Shown here piece by piece: positions 1,277-13,121 of a DNA stretch of 46,682 nt; position 1 is the first letter of the stretch, and every line of letters begins with the position of its first letter. The notes under the pieces are model-generated. The model saw only the letters and a program-made list of their open reading frames with translations, did no database searches and was not told where the DNA came from. This DNA is from Planctomycetota bacterium (GTDB lineage: Bacteria > Planctomycetota > Phycisphaerae > Sedimentisphaerales > Anaerohalosphaeraceae). Location: the NCBI GenBank assembly GCA_016873215.1, contig VGXU01000017.1, positions 1-46,682 on the forward strand, written 5' to 3'. The translations under genes and the position numbers were made by a program.

Positions 1277-2242
1277 TTATCCGACCTGGCGGCGCTGGAA
1301 GAATGCGACGGCAAGGGCAAGAATAGCCGTTGTATAGGAGGCGGAATAGCAGAGACCCTTCCAAAGGTAGGCAACGGGGACTTTGCCGGTCTCATAGATG
1401 GCGTCGCTGACCCAGAAGACCTGCATATTGGGCAGGAGATTTGCGGCCATTTTTGCCCAGAGGAACCGGGCGGCGAATTGGCCGTACAGCCAGTCGCTGA
1501 TGAGTCCCAATAAAAATACCGCGACGCAGCAGGTCAAAGTCAAAATGACGTTCATCCGAGTCGAGAGAAGCACCGCCAGCGCGACCAAAATGAGGATTCC
1601 AAACAGCAGGAGGAGGCTGGCAGAGATATCGAAGGGGTTAAATTGTCCCGCAAACGGGCCAACCTGCCATTCCTTATTCACAAAGCTTAAAAGGACGACG
1701 GCAAAGCTGGCGAGGATAGTGGTGATAACGATGGCCGTGGCCGAGAGGTTCCAGTCGTAATTGTAGTTCAGATATGCACTTATGAGCAGTGAAAGCAACA
1801 AGATAACCACTGCGGCTATGATGACAGGCATGTCCGGCTCGTCTGAGGCGCGTTCGAGGACGCCGAAGCGTGCGGCCAGGAGGTAAGCGAGGGTTCCCAG
1901 ATAGTGGGCCAGGGCGACGGCGGCGGCGACGCCGAGGAATTTACCGATGATAAAGACCGGCCTTGCGACGGGCTTGGACAGGACGGTGGTGATGGTCTTG
2001 CTTTCGATTTCTTCGGTGACGGCCCCGGTAGCACTAAAAACGGCAATGAACAAACCCGCCAGGAACAGCGTAGATAACCCCAACTCCCGCAGCAGCTTGA
2101 CGTCTTCGTCAAGGGTGTACATGCTGATGCTGGGAGCCAGGATGAAAAGCAGGAGGGCTGAGACGATAATGACGGCGTAAACCGGCTGTCGCAGGGTTTC
2201 GACGAACGTATTCTTGGCAATGCTGTATAATGCGGAAAACAT
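1277..2242 (-). CDS. ABC-2 type transporter permease
   Basis: A 321-residue integral membrane protein with about six hydrophobic segments: residues ~22-42, 55-75, 95-125, 140-160, 170-190 and the C-terminal third. After the first helix it has the typical ABC-2 cytoplasmic motif TEEIESKTITTVLSKPVARP, followed by IIGKFLGV. The same motif layout (DEIKRRQIFMVVTKPVSRW, then LLGKFLGV) occurs in the permease at 9962-11329, so the two are paralogues. No ATPase gene adjoins this one; the ATPase at 8706-9965 in the divergent operon may serve both. The substrate cannot be read from the sequence. Confidence 0.8.
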   Translation of the reverse strand: MFSALYSIAKNTFVETLRQPVYAVIIVSALLLFILAPSISMYTLDEDVKLLRELGLSTLFLAGLFIAVFSATGAVTEEIESKTITTVLSKPVARPVFIIGKFLGVAAAVALAHYLGTLAYLLAARFGVLERASDEPDMPVIIAAVVILLLSLLISAYLNYNYDWNLSATAIVITTILASFAVVLLSFVNKEWQVGPFAGQFNPFDISASLLLLFGILILVALAVLLSTRMNVILTLTCCVAVFLLGLISDWLYGQFAARFLWAKMAANLLPNMQVFWVSDAIYETGKVPVAYLWKGLCYSASYTTAILALAVAFFQRRQVG

Positions 2243-2316
2243 AAATTTTTGGAAAAAAGTACTTAACCTATCTACACAATCCTGTTATATTTTTATGCCG
2301 GATTAACAAGTTGATA

Positions 2317-2345
2317 TTGTAATTCTCTACTAAAGTTATTATAGT
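2317..2345 (+). promoter_or_regulatory. candidate sigma70 promoter of the SPFH/P-ATPase operon
   Basis: TTGTAA at 2317-2322 and TATAGT at 2340-2345 are separated by 17 bases; the boxes match consensus at 4/6 and 5/6. They lie in the 160-base divergent gap about 60 bases before the ATG at 2404. Short AT-rich matches are common, so this is tentative. Confidence 0.4.
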
Positions 2346-2403
2346 TTTACCCTTTTGGCAATAGAAAGTTCTGTGAATTTTCCAGAAGACGGGAAACGCG
2401 GTT

Positions 2404-4452
2404 ATGACAATCTCATCAAAGAAGGCTCAGCATACAGCGCTGCTGGCGTTGTGTTTGTCGGTTGTGTTTTTTATTGCGACGCTGCTGCTGAGCGCGTACT
2501 GGCAAATCCTTGCGGTGTATATATTGAGCTGGCAGATTCTATGCGGGGCGCTGGTATGGGGCGTGCTGGTGGTTCAATTTTATCACCAGTCGGCGGCCGA
2601 GCAGGAGAATCTGGATAAGGCCCGGATGTCGAAGTCGCTTGAGCAGGAGACGATATTTTCGGGCGGGGGCGGGCGGACGACATTGTTTGAACAGGCGCAT
2701 AAGCGTCTGGCTTTTTTTGAGAAGTGGATACTTCCCTCTTTGGGCATACTCATTGCAGTGGTGGAAATCGCCCTTGGGCTTCTGTTGTACCGGGCATCGG
2801 CCGGGGCTCAGGACTGGAAGCCACAAAATCCGCTTTTATGCGCGGTTCTGGTGGTCTTGATTTCATTCGTCAGCTTTCTCCTTAGCCGATACGCTACAGG
2901 AATGAGCTGCGAATCGGCGTGGCGGCCGCTGCGGGCAGGCGGGAGCTATTTTCTGACAACGGCGATTCTGGGCTTTTTTGTAACGGTGTCGCTTGCTTTT
3001 GCTCAATTCAAATACCCTATCGGCCTGCAGATTCTGGAATATGGTATTCCGTGGCTGCTGGTTGTGTTGGGTTGTGAAATTCTTTTAAACAGCGTTTTTG
3101 ATATTTATCGTCCCCGTTTGGCGGGGCAGTACAGCCAAAGCGCTTTTGACAGCCGGCTGCTGGGATTGATCAATGAGCCTGGGGGGCTGTTTCATACTAT
3201 TGCCGGGGCGATAGATTATCAGTTTGGTTTTCAGGTTTCGCAGACATGGTTTTATAAACTGCTGGGAAAAGCGATTCTGCCGCTGGCGCTGTTCACCGCG
3301 GCGATGCTGTATCTGATGACCGGGATAGTAATTGTGGGTCCGGGTCAAATGGGCGTCATCGAGCATCTTGGCAATCCGAACCCCCAATATGGCGGACGGC
3401 AGGTAGGGTCCGGGCTGACTTTCAAGTGGCCATGGCCCTTTGATAAAGTTTATTTGTACCCGGCCGACCTGATTCAGAACATTAATGTCGGGTTTATTGA
3501 AGGGGACGATAAAAAAGACAACAACCTGTTGTGGGGCAAGGAGCATTATAAGGAAGAATATAATCTGCTTGTGGCCTCGGCGGGGCAATCTTCCGAGGGC
3601 AAAGAGGATACGGTGCCGGTGAGCATCATTCGCGCCAATATTCCGGTGCTGTATCGCATTAAAGACGTCTCGGCGTATTTGTATAATCATAGCGACCCGA
3701 AACAAACACTCGAAGCTGTTTGTTATCGTGAACTGACACGATTTGGCGCCAGTGCGACGATTGAGACGGAGAAAGAGTTCATCGAATCAAGTCTGCTGGG
3801 CCGGGGGCGTCTGGAGGGTTCCCGTGTGCTTCAGCAGCGTATTCAGCAGGCCGCGGATGAGGCCGGGCTGGGCGTGGAAATCGTTCTGTGCGGATTGCAG
3901 GGAATTCATCCGCCGCCGAAGGTGGCCGCGGATTATCAGGATGTTGTCGCTTCGGTTCAGACGCGTCAGGCTTCGATAATGAATGCGATGGCGGAGCGAA
4001 ATAAAACGCTGACAGAGCTGGCCGGGTCACTGGAAGAGGTCGATTCGCTATATGCTCTTGTTAAGAAATATTCACAGGTCAAGGACAGTTTGTCGGAAAA
4101 GCAAGACCAGCAAATGAGACAGGAACTTGCGTTGGCGCTGGAGGGTGCGAAGGGACAGGTGTTTAAGACAATTCGTCAGGCCGAGGCGGACGCGTTTGCA
4201 AAAGCGACGCTGGCAGAGGCGACCGGCGAGCGTTTCAAGGGACAGCTTAAGGCGTATCAGGCCAACCCGGCATTATACAAACGGATTGAACGATTGAAGG
4301 TGCTGGAAGAGTCACTTGAAAAAGTTCGTAAATATGTCATTGCGGCGGATACGAAGGATACACAGGTGTATATTGTGGATTTGCAGGAGAAGCTGACTCC
4401 GTCGCTGTATGATATGGATGTGACCGGCGTGATTAAGGAAGCGAATAAGTAA
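2404..4452 (+). CDS. polytopic SPFH/band-7 domain protein (HflK-like)
   Basis: 682 residues. The first ~315 hold about seven hydrophobic segments, near residues 10-30, 32-55, 105-130, 140-160, 180-200, 210-230 and 292-312. An SPFH/band-7 domain follows, starting GPGQMGVIEHLGNPN and continuing through GSGLTFKWPWPFDKVYLYP. After it comes an Ala/Glu/Lys-rich helical tail (residues ~515-660) of the kind that forms coiled coils in HflK and flotillins. HflK itself has one membrane helix, so the polytopic front is unusual. SPFH proteins form large oligomeric cages or microdomains at the inner membrane and often regulate membrane proteases or transporters. This is the first of three SPFH genes in a row, 49 bases before the next, so the three probably build one hetero-oligomer. 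The start has only a weak ribosome binding site (GGGAAA). Confidence 0.8.
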   Translation: MTISSKKAQHTALLALCLSVVFFIATLLLSAYWQILAVYILSWQILCGALVWGVLVVQFYHQSAAEQENLDKARMSKSLEQETIFSGGGGRTTLFEQAHKRLAFFEKWILPSLGILIAVVEIALGLLLYRASAGAQDWKPQNPLLCAVLVVLISFVSFLLSRYATGMSCESAWRPLRAGGSYFLTTAILGFFVTVSLAFAQFKYPIGLQILEYGIPWLLVVLGCEILLNSVFDIYRPRLAGQYSQSAFDSRLLGLINEPGGLFHTIAGAIDYQFGFQVSQTWFYKLLGKAILPLALFTAAMLYLMTGIVIVGPGQMGVIEHLGNPNPQYGGRQVGSGLTFKWPWPFDKVYLYPADLIQNINVGFIEGDDKKDNNLLWGKEHYKEEYNLLVASAGQSSEGKEDTVPVSIIRANIPVLYRIKDVSAYLYNHSDPKQTLEAVCYRELTRFGASATIETEKEFIESSLLGRGRLEGSRVLQQRIQQAADEAGLGVEIVLCGLQGIHPPPKVAADYQDVVASVQTRQASIMNAMAERNKTLTELAGSLEEVDSLYALVKKYSQVKDSLSEKQDQQMRQELALALEGAKGQVFKTIRQAEADAFAKATLAEATGERFKGQLKAYQANPALYKRIERLKVLEESLEKVRKYVIAADTKDTQVYIVDLQEKLTPSLYDMDVTGVIKEANK

Positions 4453-4501
4453 ATAGACAAATGAAAAATAAATAGTTAATCAGAGATTGGGATAAACGGA
4501 T

Positions 4502-5395
4502 ATGAAAAATTTCTGGGGCGTAACGAGTATTATCGTGGTGGTGGCGGCGCTGGGACTGGCGATGTGCAGTTTCCAGGTGCGCCAGACGGAAACGGCGCTG
4601 GTGACGCGGTTTGGGCAGCCGGTGCGGGCGATTACGGAGCCGGGATTTCAGTTTCGCTGGCCCGTGGGAATTGAAAGCGTGTACAAATTTGATTCCCGCC
4701 TGCAGTTGTTCGAGGGCGTTCTGGAGGAGACGACGACAGCCGGGGGCGAGCCGATTATTATCAACAGTTTTGTTCTGTGGCGGATCACGAACCCGCAGAA
4801 GTTTCTGGTATCGGTGCATGATACCAAAGGCGCGCAGAAGAATCTTCAGAGCCTGCTGCGTAACGCCCAGAATGTCGTTGTCGGCCGGCATCGCTTCAGC
4901 GATTTTGTGAATACGGCCAAAAACAAGATTGAAGCGGTTGAAAAGGAAATTCAGACTGAAATAACCGTACAAAACAAGGTCGAAGAACAATATGGGATTC
5001 AAATCGCGACAGTAGGGGTCAAGCGATTAATGATTAGCGAAAAAGTTACGGATAAGGTGTTTGACCGGATGCGGTCCGACCGCAAGCGCAAGACGGAGTC
5101 GATTCTGGCGGAGGGCAATGCCGAGGCGGATAAAATTAAAAGCGACGCGATGGCTAAGCAAAAGGAATTACTGGCGGTAGCCGAGGCCCAGGCCAAGGCG
5201 ATTCGGGGCGCCGGCGACGCGGAAGCAGCATCCTATTATAAGATGCTTGACGCCGACCCGCAGTTGGCGATGTTTTTGCGAGACTTGGAAGCCCTGCGTA
5301 CCATCCTGAAAGACCGTTCCACGATCGTGCTGGGCACCGATACGGAGCCGATGCATTTACTGAAAGAAATTCCGAATTTAGAAAAGAAGCCGTAG
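4502..5395 (+). CDS. SPFH/band-7 protein, HflC-like
   Basis: 297 residues with the plain HflC layout. One N-terminal membrane helix (residues ~8-24) is followed by an SPFH domain whose opening RQTETALVTRFGQPVR and EPGFQFRWPVGIESVYKFD are typical. A coiled-coil stretch then reads ILAEGNAEADKIKSDA, and the end has the canonical LRDLEALRTILKDRSTIVLGTD. In E. coli HflC pairs with HflK and encloses the FtsH protease. Here the likely partners are the SPFH proteins encoded on either side; no ftsH lies in the window. It is the most conventional of the three and sits 21 bases before the next gene. Confidence 0.85.
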   Translation: MKNFWGVTSIIVVVAALGLAMCSFQVRQTETALVTRFGQPVRAITEPGFQFRWPVGIESVYKFDSRLQLFEGVLEETTTAGGEPIIINSFVLWRITNPQKFLVSVHDTKGAQKNLQSLLRNAQNVVVGRHRFSDFVNTAKNKIEAVEKEIQTEITVQNKVEEQYGIQIATVGVKRLMISEKVTDKVFDRMRSDRKRKTESILAEGNAEADKIKSDAMAKQKELLAVAEAQAKAIRGAGDAEAASYYKMLDADPQLAMFLRDLEALRTILKDRSTIVLGTDTEPMHLLKEIPNLEKKP

Positions 5396-5416
5396 GCCAA
5401 CCGGCAGGAAAATACT

Positions 5417-6700
5417 ATGTCGCATAATCACGACCATCATCATCATTCCGAGTGCGGGTGCAGACCGCAGACGTCATTTGAGCCGCAGGACGCGGCGGGC
5501 AAATCTCTGACGACGGCGCTGCAAACCAGTTTCCGGATATTAAAAATCATTATGATCATTCTGGTGGCGCTGTTTCTGGTCAGCGGGATGTTCAAAGTCC
5601 AGCAGGACGAACAGGCGCTGGTACTGATTTTCGGCAAAATGAAAGGTCTGGGCGATACACGGGTGCTGAATCCGGGGCTGAAATTTACTCTGCCCGAACC
5701 TCTGAGCGAGATTATCCGCATCCCGGTAAAAAAAGTGCAGACGCTGAACGTGGAATCGTTCTGGTATTTTGAGACCGAGCAGGAAAAACTGAGCCAGCAG
5801 AAAAGCACGTCCTTTTCAGGTACGCTGGATCCGATTAAAGACGGCTATTGTCTGACCCGGAATGAAAACCCGGCCGAAACGGAAGGAATGGATTACAATA
5901 TTGTCCATTCGCGCTGGACGGTGACGTATTCGATAGACCGTCCGGAGCTTTTCTTTGAGAATATTTATTATCGCCAGCCTCAGCCCGGGGAGGATTTTCT
6001 GGATGCGGCGGCGGAAACGGTCAAGCCGATATTGGAAAGTTTTACTTCCAACGCGGTTGTCAGCACAATGGTGGAATACGGTATTGACGATGCGGTGACC
6101 AGCAAGGCGGATATTTCTGAAGATGTAAAACGTCGTTTGCAAAAGAAGCTGGATGGGATAGAAAGCGGGATTCGGATAGACGCGGTCCGGGCAGACCGAA
6201 TTGTATGGCCGCGGCAGGTGGACGACGCGTTTACGGCGTCCATCCAGGCCAGCCAGCAAAGCAAAACGGCCGTGACCGATGCCATCGCGTTCAAGGATAA
6301 ACTGCTGACGGATACGGCCGGGCCGGACGCGGAATCGGTGCTGGCGCAATTTAAGCAGCCCGACCTGACGCAGCAGCAAAAAGAAGACCTTATGGCGCCG
6401 ATGAAAGGGCAGGTCCAGGGATTGATTGCCGAAGCAAGGGCATACAAGACGCGGGTGGTCGAAGAAGCCAAGGCCAATGCGGACTATCTGCAAAAGCTGC
6501 TGCCAGAGTACAAAAAACGTCCGCAATTAGTTTTGCAGCGGCTGTACCAGGACGCGATGGAGGAGATTATGGCCGCGGCGGACGAAAAGATAATGCTTCA
6601 GCCGGGCGAGGGACAAAACGGCAAAGAAATTCGAATCCAGATCAACCGCGACCCGAAAGCCCAGAAGAAGCAGACCCAGGAACAGAATTCACAGAAATAA
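5417..6700 (+). CDS. SPFH/band-7 protein with a His/Cys-rich N-terminal tail
   Basis: 427 residues. It opens with a soluble tail crowded with metal-ligand residues (MSHNHDHHHHSECGC: six His and two Cys within the first 15 residues). One membrane helix follows at ~40-60 (IIMIILVALFLVSG), then an SPFH domain (QQDEQALVLIFGKMKGLGD, then NPGLKFTLPEP). The region around 120-175 is longer than in HflK, and a Gln/Ala/Lys-rich helical C-terminus ends in a polar tail. The His tail would be cytoplasmic, since the SPFH domain faces outward in HflK-type topology. The next gene, 26 bases on, is a P1B-type metal ATPase, so the tail may bind or buffer the transported metal or tether the pump. AGGA precedes the ATG by about eight bases. 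Confidence 0.8.
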   Translation: MSHNHDHHHHSECGCRPQTSFEPQDAAGKSLTTALQTSFRILKIIMIILVALFLVSGMFKVQQDEQALVLIFGKMKGLGDTRVLNPGLKFTLPEPLSEIIRIPVKKVQTLNVESFWYFETEQEKLSQQKSTSFSGTLDPIKDGYCLTRNENPAETEGMDYNIVHSRWTVTYSIDRPELFFENIYYRQPQPGEDFLDAAAETVKPILESFTSNAVVSTMVEYGIDDAVTSKADISEDVKRRLQKKLDGIESGIRIDAVRADRIVWPRQVDDAFTASIQASQQSKTAVTDAIAFKDKLLTDTAGPDAESVLAQFKQPDLTQQQKEDLMAPMKGQVQGLIAEARAYKTRVVEEAKANADYLQKLLPEYKKRPQLVLQRLYQDAMEEIMAAADEKIMLQPGEGQNGKEIRIQINRDPKAQKKQTQEQNSQK

Positions 6701-6726
6701 TTTTATCCTAAACGAGACGGTTTGTT

Positions 6727-8676
6727 ATGGTACATACACATATTGGAGTTAAAGCAACGGAACTGGAAGGCGGCCATACGCACGGCAAGCAGATGCGTGT
6801 GAGTTTTGCGTTGTTTGGTACGCTGGCCGGCGGGGCGCTGCTGTTCAACGCACAACTGGCATCGTGGATGCCGGGGCTGTTTGGAACAGAGGGAGATGTA
6901 AGCACCCTTGCGGCGATGGTTGGGGCGATACTGCTGGGACTTCCAATCGTTCTGCACGCAGTCAAAGGCATTATCCACGGTCACATGCATATGGACGAAC
7001 TGGTGGCGCTGGCGGTGTTCGCCGCTTTTGTGACGGGCAATTACGTGACGGCGGGGGTGGTTGGTTTTATTATGCTGCTGGCCGAGTTGATGGAGACGCG
7101 AACGGCGCTGGGCGCCAGGGCTTCCATCGAATCGCTGATTCGTCTGACGCCTACGACGGCGAATCTTCTGGCGGGCGACGGCTCGGAAACGGAAATTGAA
7201 GTCGCCCGGCTCAAAACCGGCGATGTTGTGCGTGTTCGTCCCGGCGATAACATTCCGGCCGACGGCCAGATTCGAAGCGGCCTGAGTTCCATTAACGAAG
7301 CAACGATTACCGGCGAATCTCTGCCGGTGGACAAGGTTGCGGGGATGCAGGTTTTTGCCGGGACAACCAACCTGACCGGCGCACTGGATATCGTCGTGAC
7401 CAAGGCGGGGCATGATACCACGCTGGGTAAAGTCCAGCAGTTGATTATGGCCGCCGAGAAAACGCAGCTTCCTATTATGCGGATGATCGACCAGTATGTG
7501 ACGTGGTATATCCCGACCATTTTGATGATCAGCGTCATTATTTATTTCTTTACCAAGGACTGGAACCGTTCGATTGCGGCGCTGGTGATATCGTGTCCGT
7601 GTCCTCTGATTCTGGCGACGCCGACAGCGATGGTGGCGGCATTGTCCGCGGCCGCCCGGCTGGGAATTCTGGTCAAAAATGTTTCCCTGCTGGAAATCGC
7701 GGGCAAGATCACCGCGGTGGTGTTTGACAAGACCGGCACGCTGACGACGGGCCAGCTTTATGTGACCAAACTTGAACCCGCGGCGGGCGTGGAACCCGCG
7801 GAAATGCTGAGCTTGACGGCTTCGGCGGAGCAGATGAGTAAGCATCCGGCGGCCCGCGCAGTCGTCACTCTTGCCAAAGAGGCGAATGTGCAATTTGAAA
7901 CGGCGTCGGAATTCCGTGAAACACCCGGTAAAGGCGTCTCCGCCAGGGCGAAGGGCGTAACGGTGCTGGTGGGACGTGACAGTTTTTTGAAGGAAAAAGG
8001 CATCGACGTCAGCCGGGTGCCGAACCCCTCACTGCACGAAGAGCAGGGATTCAGCACATTGTATGTGGCGCGGGACAATCAGTGTATCGGATGGATTGGT
8101 TTGCAGGACAAATCGCGGCCTGAAGCGCAGCAGGCGGTTCAGGAATTATTCGGTTGCGACGTCCGTCGCGTTACGATGCTGACCGGCGACCGCGGCGAAG
8201 TCGCCAATCGGATTTCGGCCGAGCTGGGCTGTACGGATTACAAGGCGAACTGTCTGCCGCAGGACAAACTGGCGGTAGTGGAACGCATCAAGCAGGACGG
8301 CCATATCGTTGCCGTTGTCGGCGACGGTATCAATGACGCTCCGGCGCTGGCCGCGGGCGATTTGGGCATTGCAATGGGCGCCGCAGGCAGCGACGTGGCG
8401 ATTAACTCCGCGTCGATTGCCCTGATGAGCGATGACCTGCGGCGACTGCCTTTCCTTATGCAGCTTTCCCGCAAAACCCGCGGTGTTATCAATCAGAATT
8501 TGTTTTTCGGGGTTTTGTTCATTGTTCTTGGCATTTCCGCATCCGCCGTCGGCTGGCTTCCGCCGATTATGGCGGCGTTTCTGCATTTCGGCGGCTCCGT
8601 CCTGGTGGTGTTTAACAGCGCCCGCTTAGTACGGTTTGGTGAGCATTTGGACCCGCATATTACCGTCAGGAAATAA
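6727..8676 (+). CDS. P1B-type heavy-metal-translocating P-type ATPase
   Basis: 649 residues with all catalytic signatures of a P-type ATPase: TGES actuator loop at 195-198, phosphorylation site DKTGT at 334-338 (Asp334), the P1B-specific HP dipeptide at 373-374, TGD near 486 and GDGIND at 532-537. Membrane helix 6 carries CPC (290-292), as in Cu and Zn/Cd/Pb pumps. The last helix reads FLHFGGSVLVVFNSARL, with His620 where ZntA-type pumps have Asp, recalling the HEGGT motif of P1B-4 pumps. There is no N-terminal HMA domain. Instead the N-terminus has scattered His (MVHTHIG, GHTHGK), and HGHMHMDEL at 84-91 sits at the membrane entry platform. It lies inside an operon with three SPFH proteins. 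Substrate unknown; a divalent transition metal is the best guess. Confidence 0.88.
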   Translation: MVHTHIGVKATELEGGHTHGKQMRVSFALFGTLAGGALLFNAQLASWMPGLFGTEGDVSTLAAMVGAILLGLPIVLHAVKGIIHGHMHMDELVALAVFAAFVTGNYVTAGVVGFIMLLAELMETRTALGARASIESLIRLTPTTANLLAGDGSETEIEVARLKTGDVVRVRPGDNIPADGQIRSGLSSINEATITGESLPVDKVAGMQVFAGTTNLTGALDIVVTKAGHDTTLGKVQQLIMAAEKTQLPIMRMIDQYVTWYIPTILMISVIIYFFTKDWNRSIAALVISCPCPLILATPTAMVAALSAAARLGILVKNVSLLEIAGKITAVVFDKTGTLTTGQLYVTKLEPAAGVEPAEMLSLTASAEQMSKHPAARAVVTLAKEANVQFETASEFRETPGKGVSARAKGVTVLVGRDSFLKEKGIDVSRVPNPSLHEEQGFSTLYVARDNQCIGWIGLQDKSRPEAQQAVQELFGCDVRRVTMLTGDRGEVANRISAELGCTDYKANCLPQDKLAVVERIKQDGHIVAVVGDGINDAPALAAGDLGIAMGAAGSDVAINSASIALMSDDLRRLPFLMQLSRKTRGVINQNLFFGVLFIVLGISASAVGWLPPIMAAFLHFGGSVLVVFNSARLVRFGEHLDPHITVRK

Positions 8677-8705
8677 ATACAGTTCAGTTTGAAATGAGGC
8701 ATATC

Positions 8706-9965
8706 GTGGCGGAAAGTCAATTTGCGATAGAAACGATTGCGTTGACCAAGGTTTTTCCCGACTGGTGGGGCCGGTCCCGCGTTGTGGCGGTGGATAATCT
8801 GAACCTGCGAATCCGTACCAACGAAATTTACGGATTTCTTGGGCCTAATGGTTCGGGCAAAACGACGACCATCAAGATGCTGCTGAATCTGCTGCATCCC
8901 ACGAGCGGCGCAGCGGTGGTGCTCGGCGGCAGCAGCTCAGAGGCGGCCGTTTCGTCCCGCATCGGCTATCTTCCGGAGGATTCGTATTTATACCGGTATT
9001 TGACAGCGTATGAGACGCTGGATTTTTACGGCCGGTTGTTTGGGCTTCCGTCATCCATACGAAAATTGCGTATCGAAACCCTGCTGGATATGGTGGGGCT
9101 GGCGGGGGTTGGCAATCGCCAGGTTGGGACGTTTTCCAAAGGGATGGCACGGCGTATTGGTCTGGCGGGAGCGTTGATTAACGACCCGGACCTGCTGATT
9201 CTTGATGAGCCTACATCAGGAATGGACCCGATGGGAACCCGTCAAATCAAAGATTTGCTGGTGGAACTGGCGCGCCGCGGGAAAACGATATTATTATGCA
9301 GTCATCTGCTGGCCGACGTGGAAGATATCTGTGACCGCATCGGTATCCTGTACGGCGGAAAAATGCAGGTGGAGGGGTCGGTTCGGGAATTGCTGGAACA
9401 GACCGGCGAAACGCAGATTCGGACACACAGTCTGAACGAATCGGCGACTCAGCGTATCCGTCAGATTCTGGAAGAGGAACAGGGGGAATGCGAAATTACG
9501 CATCCGATGGATAAACTGGAAAGTTTTTTTGTGCGTGTTGTTGCCAAAGCACAGCAGGAAATGCAATTGACCAGCGGAGCGGGAGCGGGGGCGGGCATCA
9601 GCGGTTTTCTTGCGGACAAAGAAATTGTACGTCAGCTGGGGATACTGGAGCAACTGGTCTCGGCGGAACCCGTGCAAAATCCGACAATAACCGAAGCAGA
9701 TGCCGTGACGATACAAACCCAACTACGGCCTGTGACGGAGTCGTCTTCGCCCGACAATAGTTTATTGCGTACACTGACGGCCTCCAAGACGGAAGTTCCG
9801 CTGTCGGGGAAAATGGAATCTTCTCCGTCCGGCGCAGCGCAGCAGCCTAAACCGGCTGAGGCGGTCAAAAAAGACATACTGGAAGACCTGCTGGGTCGAG
9901 GAAAAAAGACCGACGGCACAACCACTCCCACGGATTCCAAAACAGATGGAGAGACAGCGGAATGA
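8706..9965 (+). CDS. ABC transporter ATP-binding protein with C-terminal extension
   Basis: I chose the GTG at 8706 because GAGG lies six bases upstream; the in-frame ATG at 8694 has no ribosome binding site. The first ~235 residues form an ABC-2-exporter type ATPase. It has Walker A GPNGSGKT, a signature of the form FSKGMARR, Walker B LLILDEP and the switch histidine in LLCSHLLADVE. About 180 residues follow that are not part of the nucleotide-binding fold. They include a Gly/Ala run (SGAGAGAGIS) and a Pro/Ser/Thr-rich, low-complexity tail that is probably disordered. The gene overlaps the permease gene by four bases (ATGA), so the two are translated together and surely form one transporter. 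Confidence 0.88.
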   Translation: MAESQFAIETIALTKVFPDWWGRSRVVAVDNLNLRIRTNEIYGFLGPNGSGKTTTIKMLLNLLHPTSGAAVVLGGSSSEAAVSSRIGYLPEDSYLYRYLTAYETLDFYGRLFGLPSSIRKLRIETLLDMVGLAGVGNRQVGTFSKGMARRIGLAGALINDPDLLILDEPTSGMDPMGTRQIKDLLVELARRGKTILLCSHLLADVEDICDRIGILYGGKMQVEGSVRELLEQTGETQIRTHSLNESATQRIRQILEEEQGECEITHPMDKLESFFVRVVAKAQQEMQLTSGAGAGAGISGFLADKEIVRQLGILEQLVSAEPVQNPTITEADAVTIQTQLRPVTESSSPDNSLLRTLTASKTEVPLSGKMESSPSGAAQQPKPAEAVKKDILEDLLGRGKKTDGTTTPTDSKTDGETAE

Positions 9966-11329
9966 AAAAAGTCTGGGCAGTCGCGCGAAATACCATCGCT
10001 CAGGCTCTTCGGATGAAGATCGCAGGTGTTGTTATTATTCTGCTGCTGATTCTGCTGCCGATGATGAGCCTTGTGATGATCGGCGACGGCACGCTGCTGG
10101 GGAAACTTCAGACCTTTTCCAGTTACAGCCTGAGTCTGGTGGGCCTGATGCTGTGCGTTCTGACTATCGCGATTTCAACGTTTACGCTCAGCGATGAAAT
10201 CAAGCGCAGACAGATTTTTATGGTGGTGACCAAGCCCGTGAGCCGATGGACCATTTTACTGGGGAAGTTTTTAGGCGTGGTACTGATCGATGTTTTTCTT
10301 CTGATTTTCTTTGCGTCCGCCGTTTATGGCCTGACCTGCCTGATTCCATACTGGACGGAGGTTGCTCCGCAGGAATACCAACAGGCGCAAAATGAGTTTT
10401 TCACCGCCCGTGAAGGGATTAAAGTCGTTATCGATAACGCTGAAATTCAAAAGCGGGCAAAAGAACGGTATCAGCAAATGGAAAAAGACCGCCGTTTGCC
10501 TGAAACGATGACGCCGAAGGAAATTAAGGCTCAGTTGTTCAATGAAGAGCGTATTCGTGAGCAAAGTATTGAGCCGGGTCGGTCTCGCCAATGGGATTTT
10601 AATGGGGTACGTCCAGCATCGGACCCCAACGCGCTGATTTTTGTGCGATATAAGTACGATGCTTCCGCGACGCCGCCGGACGGCAGAGTTTTCGGTCTCT
10701 GGAGTATCGGCGATTTACAAAGTTATGAACAGGGGACGCTGACGACACCGATTTATAATGTTCGCCGGGATGCTCCGACGCGGTCGGCGCAGGAATTTGC
10801 GGTTCCCGCCGGCGCCGTGGCCAAGCAGGGATATCTTGGGGTTGGATTTGTCAACAGCCCCGAATTGAACGTTTCGACGGTGATGGTACAGGACCTGGAA
10901 ATATTATACAAAGTCGGGAGTTTTACGGAGAATTACTGCCGAATGGTTTTACTGTTATTGATTCGTCTGATTTTTCTGGCCGTATTGGGCATTGTCCTGA
11001 CGACGTGGCTGTCATTTCCGGTGGCGATTCTGGTTTGTACGGTGATTTTTGGTTTGGGTACCGTAAACGGGTTTATCGTGGAATCTTTTGACGGTTTTGG
11101 AGTGGGAATGGGGACGGTGTATCACTATAGCATCCAGCCATTATTGTCGCTGCTGCCGCGATTTGACGGCGATTTCAGTCCGACAAAGTATATCATTTCA
11201 GGACGAATGGTTCGTGGGATGTTTTTGCTTAGGGCCGCCGTCGAAACAATCGGGTTCAAAGCGTTTTTATTAATGCTGCTGGGCATGTGGGTTTTCCGGT
11301 CGCGTGAAGTAGCTAAAACGGCGGTGTAA
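9962..11329 (+). CDS. ABC-2 type transporter permease
   Basis: 455 residues. An N-terminal cytoplasmic stretch and two membrane helices (~20-40, 55-75) lead into the ABC-2 motif DEIKRRQIFMVVTKPVSRW. A helix at ~100-122 is followed by a roughly 190-residue loop (residues ~125-310), predicted extracytoplasmic, and then four more helices to the end. The large loop sets it apart from the shorter paralogue at 1277-2242. Gene order and the 4-base overlap make it the membrane partner of the preceding ATPase. Substrate unknown. Confidence 0.85.
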   Translation: MKKVWAVARNTIAQALRMKIAGVVIILLLILLPMMSLVMIGDGTLLGKLQTFSSYSLSLVGLMLCVLTIAISTFTLSDEIKRRQIFMVVTKPVSRWTILLGKFLGVVLIDVFLLIFFASAVYGLTCLIPYWTEVAPQEYQQAQNEFFTAREGIKVVIDNAEIQKRAKERYQQMEKDRRLPETMTPKEIKAQLFNEERIREQSIEPGRSRQWDFNGVRPASDPNALIFVRYKYDASATPPDGRVFGLWSIGDLQSYEQGTLTTPIYNVRRDAPTRSAQEFAVPAGAVAKQGYLGVGFVNSPELNVSTVMVQDLEILYKVGSFTENYCRMVLLLLIRLIFLAVLGIVLTTWLSFPVAILVCTVIFGLGTVNGFIVESFDGFGVGMGTVYHYSIQPLLSLLPRFDGDFSPTKYIISGRMVRGMFLLRAAVETIGFKAFLLMLLGMWVFRSREVAKTAV

Positions 11330-11339
11330 GGACAGAATA

Positions 11340-13121
11340 ATGCGCGGGAAGGATTACGGAATTATTTTAATAAGCCTGGTAATAGCCGGCGGGATGTTTT
11401 ATCTGTCGGCGATACAGCAGGATCCGATCCGTCAAAGCCGGGAGAAAATGGGGCTGGTGATGAATACGTCGCTGGAGAATGCGCCGCCGTCGCTGGCCTT
11501 TGCCACCGTGGCGATGGGTGCGTTTCGCGGCCTGGTGGTTGATATTCTCTGGATGCGTGCCGACAAGCTCAAGCAGGATGGGCAGTTTTTCGACGCCAAA
11601 CAATTGGCGGAGTGGATTACGATTCTTCAGCCGCGGTTCGCTACGGTCTGGGATTTCCATTCGTGGAATATGGCCTACAATATTTCAGTGACGATTCCCA
11701 ATACGCAATGTCAGGAGCGCTGGCGATGGGTACGCAACGGCTACGAACTTCTGCGAGACAAAGGCATTCCGCTCAACCCCAAAAGCATTATTTTGTATCG
11801 CCAGCTTGCCTGGATTTTTCTGCATAAAATCGGTGACGTTTCAGATGATTGTCATCTCTATTACAAGAAGGAATTAGCATTGTCGATGCGGTCGCTGCTG
11901 GGCGACAACAGTAACACTGAGTTTGACAGTCTGGCCGAGGCTCCTAAAACGCTCAAGGACGCCTTACAGGACAAGGAGACGTCGCAATTTGTCTCTTCGC
12001 TGCAGAAAGCCGATGCGGAGTTTATCCCGCCGGACAAGCTGGCGGAGCGGTACCTGGCATTACGTCAGACTCCGGAGCGATTTTCCAAAGAAGCCTTTGC
12101 CGTTGTGGATCAATTTCGCAATACCGAAGGACTGAAACGATTTGATTATTTTTCCCGGGCGTATCAGATTCGCAATGTCTGGAAGATGGACCCGGTGTAT
12201 ATGCGGAAAATGAATCAGATGTATGGTCCTGTCGATTTGAACGACCCAAACCAGCGAACGCCGCTCAACTGGGAACATCCGGCCGTGCATGCGATGTACT
12301 GGGGGTCTCTGGGGCTTGAAATCGCCGGCCGTCCGGAACAATACCGTGTGGACGAAAAGAACACTGACCGCATTATTTTTCACGGTTTGCAGTTGCTGTA
12401 TCGGACGGGTAAAACCACCGTTTACACCACGAAGGACGGCCAAAGCAGTATTTTTCTAAGGCCGGACCTGCGGATGTTTGACAGTTGCGATCAGATATAT
12501 AAGAAAGTGATAGCGAAGTATGAATCGCTGGAAAAAGGCAACCCCAGGGCGCTTCGCGGGGGTCATAAAAATTTGCTGCAAAACGCGGTAATGAGTTTTT
12601 ATCAGGCCGGGCACATCAACCACGCCCTGCGGGTTTATAAGGAACTGGTGACGCTGTACCCAACGGATGAATCGGGGTTTGAATACAAAGAACATAAGCT
12701 GCCGATGGTTGAGTTTGTCAAATACCAGCTCAAGGAGGAATTTAGCGGCTTAGGCATTCAGGACGCGACGGAGTTCATCGTAATGGTTTTGCGTGAAGGG
12801 TATTTTCGTTATGCCGTTCATGATGATGACGAAGCCGCGGGCCGGGAAAAACTGGCTCAGGATGTCTATACGATGTACCAGAATGAAAACCGCAGCGAGT
12901 CCTATCGTCTTGGAATGCCGAGTTTTGAAATGCTGCGCTATATGGCGTTTATGGATTTTCTTAACGACCTGGAATATCCTCAGGAATTACGGATGAGTCT
13001 GCTGGGGCGGATTCAGGTGGAGCGCCCGGATCTATTTGAAAAGCTGCAGAAGCAGGAAAAGCAGTATTTTGAAGCACTCCGCAAACAGCAGGAGTTGCAG
13101 TCGCAGCCGGCCAATCCGTAA
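11340..13121 (+). CDS. membrane-anchored protein of unknown function, probably helical-repeat
   Basis: 593 residues. One N-terminal membrane helix (IILISLVIAGGMFYLSAI, residues ~8-25) is followed by a large domain predicted outside the cytoplasm. The region at ~50-130 has a conserved look (GAFRGLVVDILWMRADKLK, then AEWITILQPRF and DFHSWNMAYN). Alternating helices and phrases such as YQAGHINHALRVYKELVTLYP (residues ~420-440) suggest TPR-like repeats. The C-terminus is Gln-rich. The ATG follows the permease stop by ten bases with AAGGA in between, so it belongs to the transporter operon. A role as extracytoplasmic partner of the ABC exporter is an inference from position only. Confidence 0.7.
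   Translation: MRGKDYGIILISLVIAGGMFYLSAIQQDPIRQSREKMGLVMNTSLENAPPSLAFATVAMGAFRGLVVDILWMRADKLKQDGQFFDAKQLAEWITILQPRFATVWDFHSWNMAYNISVTIPNTQCQERWRWVRNGYELLRDKGIPLNPKSIILYRQLAWIFLHKIGDVSDDCHLYYKKELALSMRSLLGDNSNTEFDSLAEAPKTLKDALQDKETSQFVSSLQKADAEFIPPDKLAERYLALRQTPERFSKEAFAVVDQFRNTEGLKRFDYFSRAYQIRNVWKMDPVYMRKMNQMYGPVDLNDPNQRTPLNWEHPAVHAMYWGSLGLEIAGRPEQYRVDEKNTDRIIFHGLQLLYRTGKTTVYTTKDGQSSIFLRPDLRMFDSCDQIYKKVIAKYESLEKGNPRALRGGHKNLLQNAVMSFYQAGHINHALRVYKELVTLYPTDESGFEYKEHKLPMVEFVKYQLKEEFSGLGIQDATEFIVMVLREGYFRYAVHDDDEAAGREKLAQDVYTMYQNENRSESYRLGMPSFEMLRYMAFMDFLNDLEYPQELRMSLLGRIQVERPDLFEKLQKQEKQYFEALRKQQELQSQPANP

Follow-up and report, generated by a model that had tools for sequence, protein, structure and literature searches.

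Work on SPFH scaffolds has centred on how they organise membranes and control proteases rather than on metals. In E. coli HflK, the N-terminus is Gly/Asn-rich and not His-rich. Overexpression of this protein with an octa-His tag engineered onto its N-terminus has been described (PMC12048511). In M. tuberculosis, metal ligands sit on the disordered tail (DLHDHDH) of PacL1, a small, scaffold-like membrane protein encoded beside the P1B pump CtpC (PMC9374683). The PacL1 tail peptide binds Zn with a Kd of about 6 µM, and the tail is needed only at high zinc and is dispensable at low metal (PMC9374683). In the planctomycete DNA studied here, a His/Cys-rich N-terminal tail lies on the third of three SPFH proteins (SPFH3), whose gene adjoins that of a P1B-type heavy-metal ATPase. 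The first-pass annotation suggested that this tail might act as a metal-delivery part for the neighbouring pump. We compared the tail, the pump and their gene neighbourhood across orthologous loci; our search of the literature on SPFH clusters in Planctomycetes found no relevant paper.

The SPFH3 gene, its neighbours and its tail

The window, i.e. the whole 46,682-nucleotide stretch that was analysed (contig VGXU01000017.1), contains the following features of the cluster:

1277..2242, − strand: divergent ABC-2 permease at the 5′ end of the cluster (Pfam ABC2_membrane_2, 4.6e-7; synteny)
2404..4452, + strand: SPFH1, 682 aa, with Band_7 at residues 310-531 (Pfam Band_7, 1.6e-12)
4502..5395, + strand: SPFH2, HflC-like SPFH protein (Pfam Band_7, 8e-23; TIGR01932 hflC, 2.5e-35)
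5417..6700, + strand: SPFH3, HflK-like SPFH/Band_7 protein, 427 aa; tail at residues 1-21, juxtamembrane motif and membrane helix at about 26-55 (Pfam Band_7, TIGR01933, Foldseek)
5417..5461, + strand: His/Cys-rich N-terminal tail of SPFH3, MSHNHDHHHHSECGC (sequence, genome pattern search, AlphaFold2 model)
6727..8676, + strand: P1B-type heavy-metal ATPase with a CPC motif and no HMA domain (TIGR01525, 8e-167)
8694..9965, + strand: ABC transporter ATPase of the conserved cluster (Pfam ABC_tran, 3.4e-28; synteny)
9962..11329, + strand: ABC-2-like permease of the conserved cluster (weak Pfam ABC2_membrane matches; synteny)
11340..13121, + strand: 593-aa protein of the conserved cluster (no Pfam match at E ≤ 0.01; synteny)

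The order divergent ABC-2 permease, SPFH1, SPFH2, SPFH3, ABC ATPase, ABC permease and 593-aa protein is found class-wide, and SPFH3 was present in 235 of the 257 class genomes searched. A three-SPFH membrane scaffold with an ABC exporter is kept across Phycisphaerae, and the conserved block of three SPFH genes, ABC-2 exporter and 593-aa protein spans 1277-13121 of the window. In SPFH1, the Band_7 domain is preceded by a long hydrophobic N-terminal part, and SPFH2 of the window has no His tail. In a congener (G001), SPFH3 (L039:4263-5556) is spread over two overlapping frames, either by an assembly frameshift or as a broken gene.

SPFH3 is a member of the SPFH/Band_7 family, matching Pfam PF01145 at 5e-16 (59.6 bits, cut-off 23.6). 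Its match to TIGR01933 (hflK; 7.5e-33) scored 114.1 bits, under the curated equivalog cut-off of 159.4, and we therefore call it HflK-like only. Foldseek of the SPFH3 model matched stomatin, prohibitin and HflK/C, with E. coli HflK (7vhq_E) as the top match (E = 1.5e-18); the same entry was closest among PDB entries in a sequence search (1.2e-12).

In agreement with the first-pass annotation, the first 15 residues of SPFH3 (MSHNHDHHHHSECGC, 5417-5461) hold six His (positions 3, 5, 7, 8, 9 and 10) and two Cys (13 and 15), the others being Met1, Ser2, Asn4, Asp6, Ser11, Glu12 and Gly14. The start of this protein is firm, since no ATG, GTG or TTG lies ahead of 5417 in a frame that opens at 5396, and since the conserved juxtamembrane motif (DAAGKSL..AL) precedes the next Met, which is inside the membrane helix. 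A wrong start codon was ruled out, ATG 5417 being the sole possible start in frame; AGGA lies 8 nt upstream of it. Assuming 2.2% His, at least six His in 15 residues are expected with a probability of ∼5e-7 per protein. The coding pattern for HxHxHHHH occurred a single time in the whole 2.69-Mb genome, this one DNA pattern being the only measure of His-rich N-termini genome-wide.

In the AlphaFold2 model of SPFH3, the first ∼21 residues are disordered (pLDDT mostly <50) and are followed by a helix at 26-55. If SPFH3 is oriented like its homologue HflK, its tail should lie on the cytosolic side. The conserved N-terminal part of the protein is not the tail; it is the juxtamembrane motif D-x-A-x-x-S-L-x-x-A-L, which is found at 5492-5590 ahead of the membrane helix and is far better kept than the tail.

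Recurrence and turnover of the tail

Our comparison set comprised 157 orthologous loci from the class and phylum, covering 25 families, and a tail was scored as His-rich when any 15 of its residues held at least four His. By this measure, SPFH3 tails were His-rich at 56 of the 157 loci and in 15 of the 25 families. Both tail states occurred within 11 families. As a control, the N-termini of other proteins from the same loci were scored. His-rich N-termini were found in SPFH3 (42/130) and in the P1B ATPase (39/94), in none of about 680 other cluster proteins (SPFH1, SPFH2, ABC and 593-aa proteins; 0/134 for SPFH1 and 0/130 for SPFH2 orthologues) and in 8/326 other open reading frames of the loci. 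A genomic background of His-rich N-termini was ruled out by these control proteins and by the single pattern match in the genome.

The tail is optional, being frequently gained and lost among relatives: on the tree of the 131 pump-linked loci, the ligand-rich state has changed at least 21-26 times. This very fast turnover, the lack of a tail in many close relatives and its predicted disorder would all be expected if it were a neutral, or nearly neutral, low-complexity extension, with His runs that arise by repeat slippage and persist because they are harmless. However, such runs were missing from SPFH1 and SPFH2 and rare in the other reading frames, and Cys pairs accompany the His residues. 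Of the 17 tails with Cys, 16 have it paired as CC or CxC, and Cys was nearly always accompanied by His (Fisher's exact test, not corrected for kinship; P = 1.5e-4). The His codons speak in the same direction, since most tails mix CAC and CAT, which disfavours fresh repeat slippage as their source. In addition, relatives within families that share 60-95% of their core residues kept 66% of the His/Cys sites (23% through a synonymous codon) compared with 31% of other tail sites, a difference to be read with care because the pair counts are not independent, and because alignment of low-complexity His runs favours matches and may inflate the ligand-site figure. We take this ligand-site conservation as moderate evidence that the tail is probably more than drift, and consider a neutral extension unlikely. 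Free variation like that of a disordered extension, which the first-pass annotation had named as one outcome that would speak against it, thus describes the rapid turnover of the tail but not its His/Cys sites, which were kept twice as often as other tail sites.

Two related loci (L114:905-990 and L231) carry a tail with Cys only (MGKNCCCSI.SP.C) and no His.

A His-rich tail could also serve a function other than metal binding, as a pH-responsive or polyampholyte (HD/HG) segment that tunes assembly, or as a handle for the Zn-protease FtsH. Long tails at two loci (L122 and L124) are rich in alternating His-Asp, the charge of which shifts near neutral pH, and HflK/C is a partner of FtsH in E. 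coli (PMC12048511). A pH function, however, leaves the Cys pairs unexplained, and we judge a non-metal role to be very improbable.

The tail and the neighbouring P1B pump

The ATPase next to SPFH3 is a heavy-metal P1B ATPase and, as first annotated, lacks an HMA domain (no Pfam match). It bears a His motif of its own at the N-terminus (MVHTHIGVKATELEGGHTHGKQ), of the form MxHxH[LI]xxK...HTHGKQ (6727-6800), which is kept in most relatives of the order. Among the 81 pumps encoded directly downstream of SPFH3, 65 start with MxHxH[LI], and 79 have at least two His in their first 40 residues. Since the pump carries this conserved N-terminal motif, a delivery module is not evidently missing, contrary to the idea that the SPFH3 tail fills such a gap. 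The second His pair of the motif is missing in some genera (e.g. L111, L213 and L218-L221). P1B-2 pumps have an Asp at a C-terminal site where the window pump has LHFGGSVLVVFNSARL, combined in this protein with the CPC motif. In the genome of the window, the ATPase was the sole match to itself at E ≤ 0.001.

The P1B gene lies between SPFH3 and the ABC gene throughout the order to which the window belongs, at the 5′ end of the block in several other families (among them f9, f43, f71, f76 and f77), and was not found near the block in some others. The place of the gene thus shifts between families (L141, L181-L189 and L119-L124). We classed loci by this position, taking 'no pump' to mean that no P1B gene lay within about 10 kb upstream of SPFH3 or next to it; the remaining loci of the 157 ended at contig ends and were left unclassed.

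The tail had been expected whenever, and only when, the pump gene was adjacent, and neither direction held. With the pump directly downstream, only 24/81 tails were His-rich, and 33/81 had no His at all; with the pump at the 5′ end, the count was 14/23, and with no pump nearby 13/33. Taken together, linked loci (38/104) and unlinked loci (13/33) did not differ (Fisher's exact test; P = 0.84), and no positive association between tail and pump appeared at any His threshold from 3 to 6. Pump-less loci with a His-rich tail were also found in closed, single-contig genomes (G423, with a tail starting MAHKHHHDHDHEH, and G474, with a tail containing CGCGHDHGHHHHHH). As for pump position (5′ versus 3′), the data hold only one independent change. 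The failure of both directions rules out coupling of the tail to pump adjacency, and the two vary independently. An essential role for the tail is impossible, because both states occur within the 11 families and because 33 of the 81 pump-adjacent loci lack tail His.

A delivery module that replaces the missing HMA domain would explain why the SPFH3 and pump genes adjoin throughout the order, the window included. It would also fit a weak inverse trend, in that pumps with an expanded His/Cys N-terminus went with poorer SPFH3 tails (rho = −0.32, P = 0.004, not corrected for kinship). This reciprocity was retested with thresholds set beforehand, 40 added loci and independent pairs, of which none changed in the same direction and about 4.3 in opposite directions (median P = 0.125). 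A second threshold, chosen post hoc, gave no trend. A reciprocal swap of ligands between tail and pump N-terminus was therefore not significant once kinship was respected, and we treat it as a lead and not as a result.

The tail may instead depend on a pump anywhere in the genome, and not on adjacency. Nineteen genomes with a pump-less or unresolved locus were searched, and 18 of them had a close pump orthologue elsewhere (50-58%), in line with the delivery module; the one in which none was found is G265, with a locus that stops at a contig edge. Three families (f8, f11 and f12) had no His tails in 16 loci, and no close pump orthologue was found in the seven genomes searched. As they may form one clade, they count as at most one event. 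Given the pump-adjacent tails without His, the His-rich tails in pump-less clusters and the His motif that the pump itself retains, we now regard a delivery module for the adjacent ATPase as improbable. Of the first metal reading, the tail itself stood, as a real and recurrent feature (15/25 families) with partly constrained ligand sites, and the tie to the pump did not.

A proposed optional metal-ligand tail and its known counterparts

The explanation we prefer, and to which we give an even chance, is that SPFH3 carries an optional, cytosolic, disordered metal-ligand tail, which would provide local metal buffering or capture on an SPFH scaffold, independently of the pump and dispensably. SPFH3 would belong, as one subunit, to a membrane scaffold of three SPFH proteins, and the segment ahead of its membrane helix an optional tail of HxH motifs, His runs and CxC or CC pairs. 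Judging from HflK, this segment is most likely cytosolic, and it probably binds ions of the Zn/Cu/Ni type, with low affinity and reversibly. The rings that SPFH proteins form would bring many tails together at one membrane patch, where they could buffer or capture metal locally. From there, metal could pass to any exporter at hand, the P1B pump included. The tail would not have been built for the pump, and the scaffold could do without the tail. Frequent turnover, as observed, is what would be expected of an optional tail carried by an essential scaffold.

The pump is the only link of the cluster to metals, and in many families it is absent from the cluster or far from it. A metal-ligand tail on SPFH3 is plausible on the sequence comparison, which refutes the pump coupling as it was stated. 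A metal-ligand tail that recurs on a single member of the conserved SPFH trio would tie SPFH scaffolds to metal homeostasis. The locus also carries a caution: a His/Cys tail beside a metal pump seemed a matched pair, and in a wide comparison both vary independently.

Among known systems, E. coli HflK is like SPFH3 in its SPFH fold and in its arrangement, in which a short N-terminal segment leads into a single membrane helix, followed by the SPFH domain and a long helical stalk. SPFH3 differs in staying under the hflK cut-off (114 versus 159 bits) and in being clustered with two further SPFH genes and ABC genes. P1B ATPases with N-terminal His motifs or HMA domains (ZntA, CopA and CtpC) resemble the window pump in having an N-terminal ligand motif. 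In contrast to these, the window pump has no HMA domain; its motif is the short MxHxH[LI]...HTHGKQ, and its CPC goes with LHFGGSVLVVFNSARL.

PacL1-CtpC is a parallel in the way the parts may work. PacL1 is anchored in the membrane, oligomerises as a scaffold and bears a short, disordered tail of the HDH type, and its gene adjoins that of a P1B ATPase. In our data, the scaffold gene lies next to the P1B gene in the window as across its order; elsewhere the pump is at the other end or not nearby. Unlike the tail of PacL1, that of SPFH3 is independent of pump adjacency. PacL1 is, moreover, a small DUF1490 protein and not an SPFH protein, its tail is C-terminal, and its foci exclude the flotillin-like Rv1488. 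Pfam found only Band_7 and no DUF1490 in SPFH3, placing it outside the PacL family. SPFH3 is thus no PacL homologue, and the parallel is one of analogy only. A more ambitious version of this analogy is an SPFH-based effluxosome, in which the three-SPFH scaffold would gather metal-binding tails at a membrane patch together with the P1B pump and the ABC exporter, the ligands being carried by either scaffold or pump and moving from one to the other in the course of evolution. We hold this to be quite unlikely; if true, such an effluxosome would be built on SPFH proteins in place of PacL.
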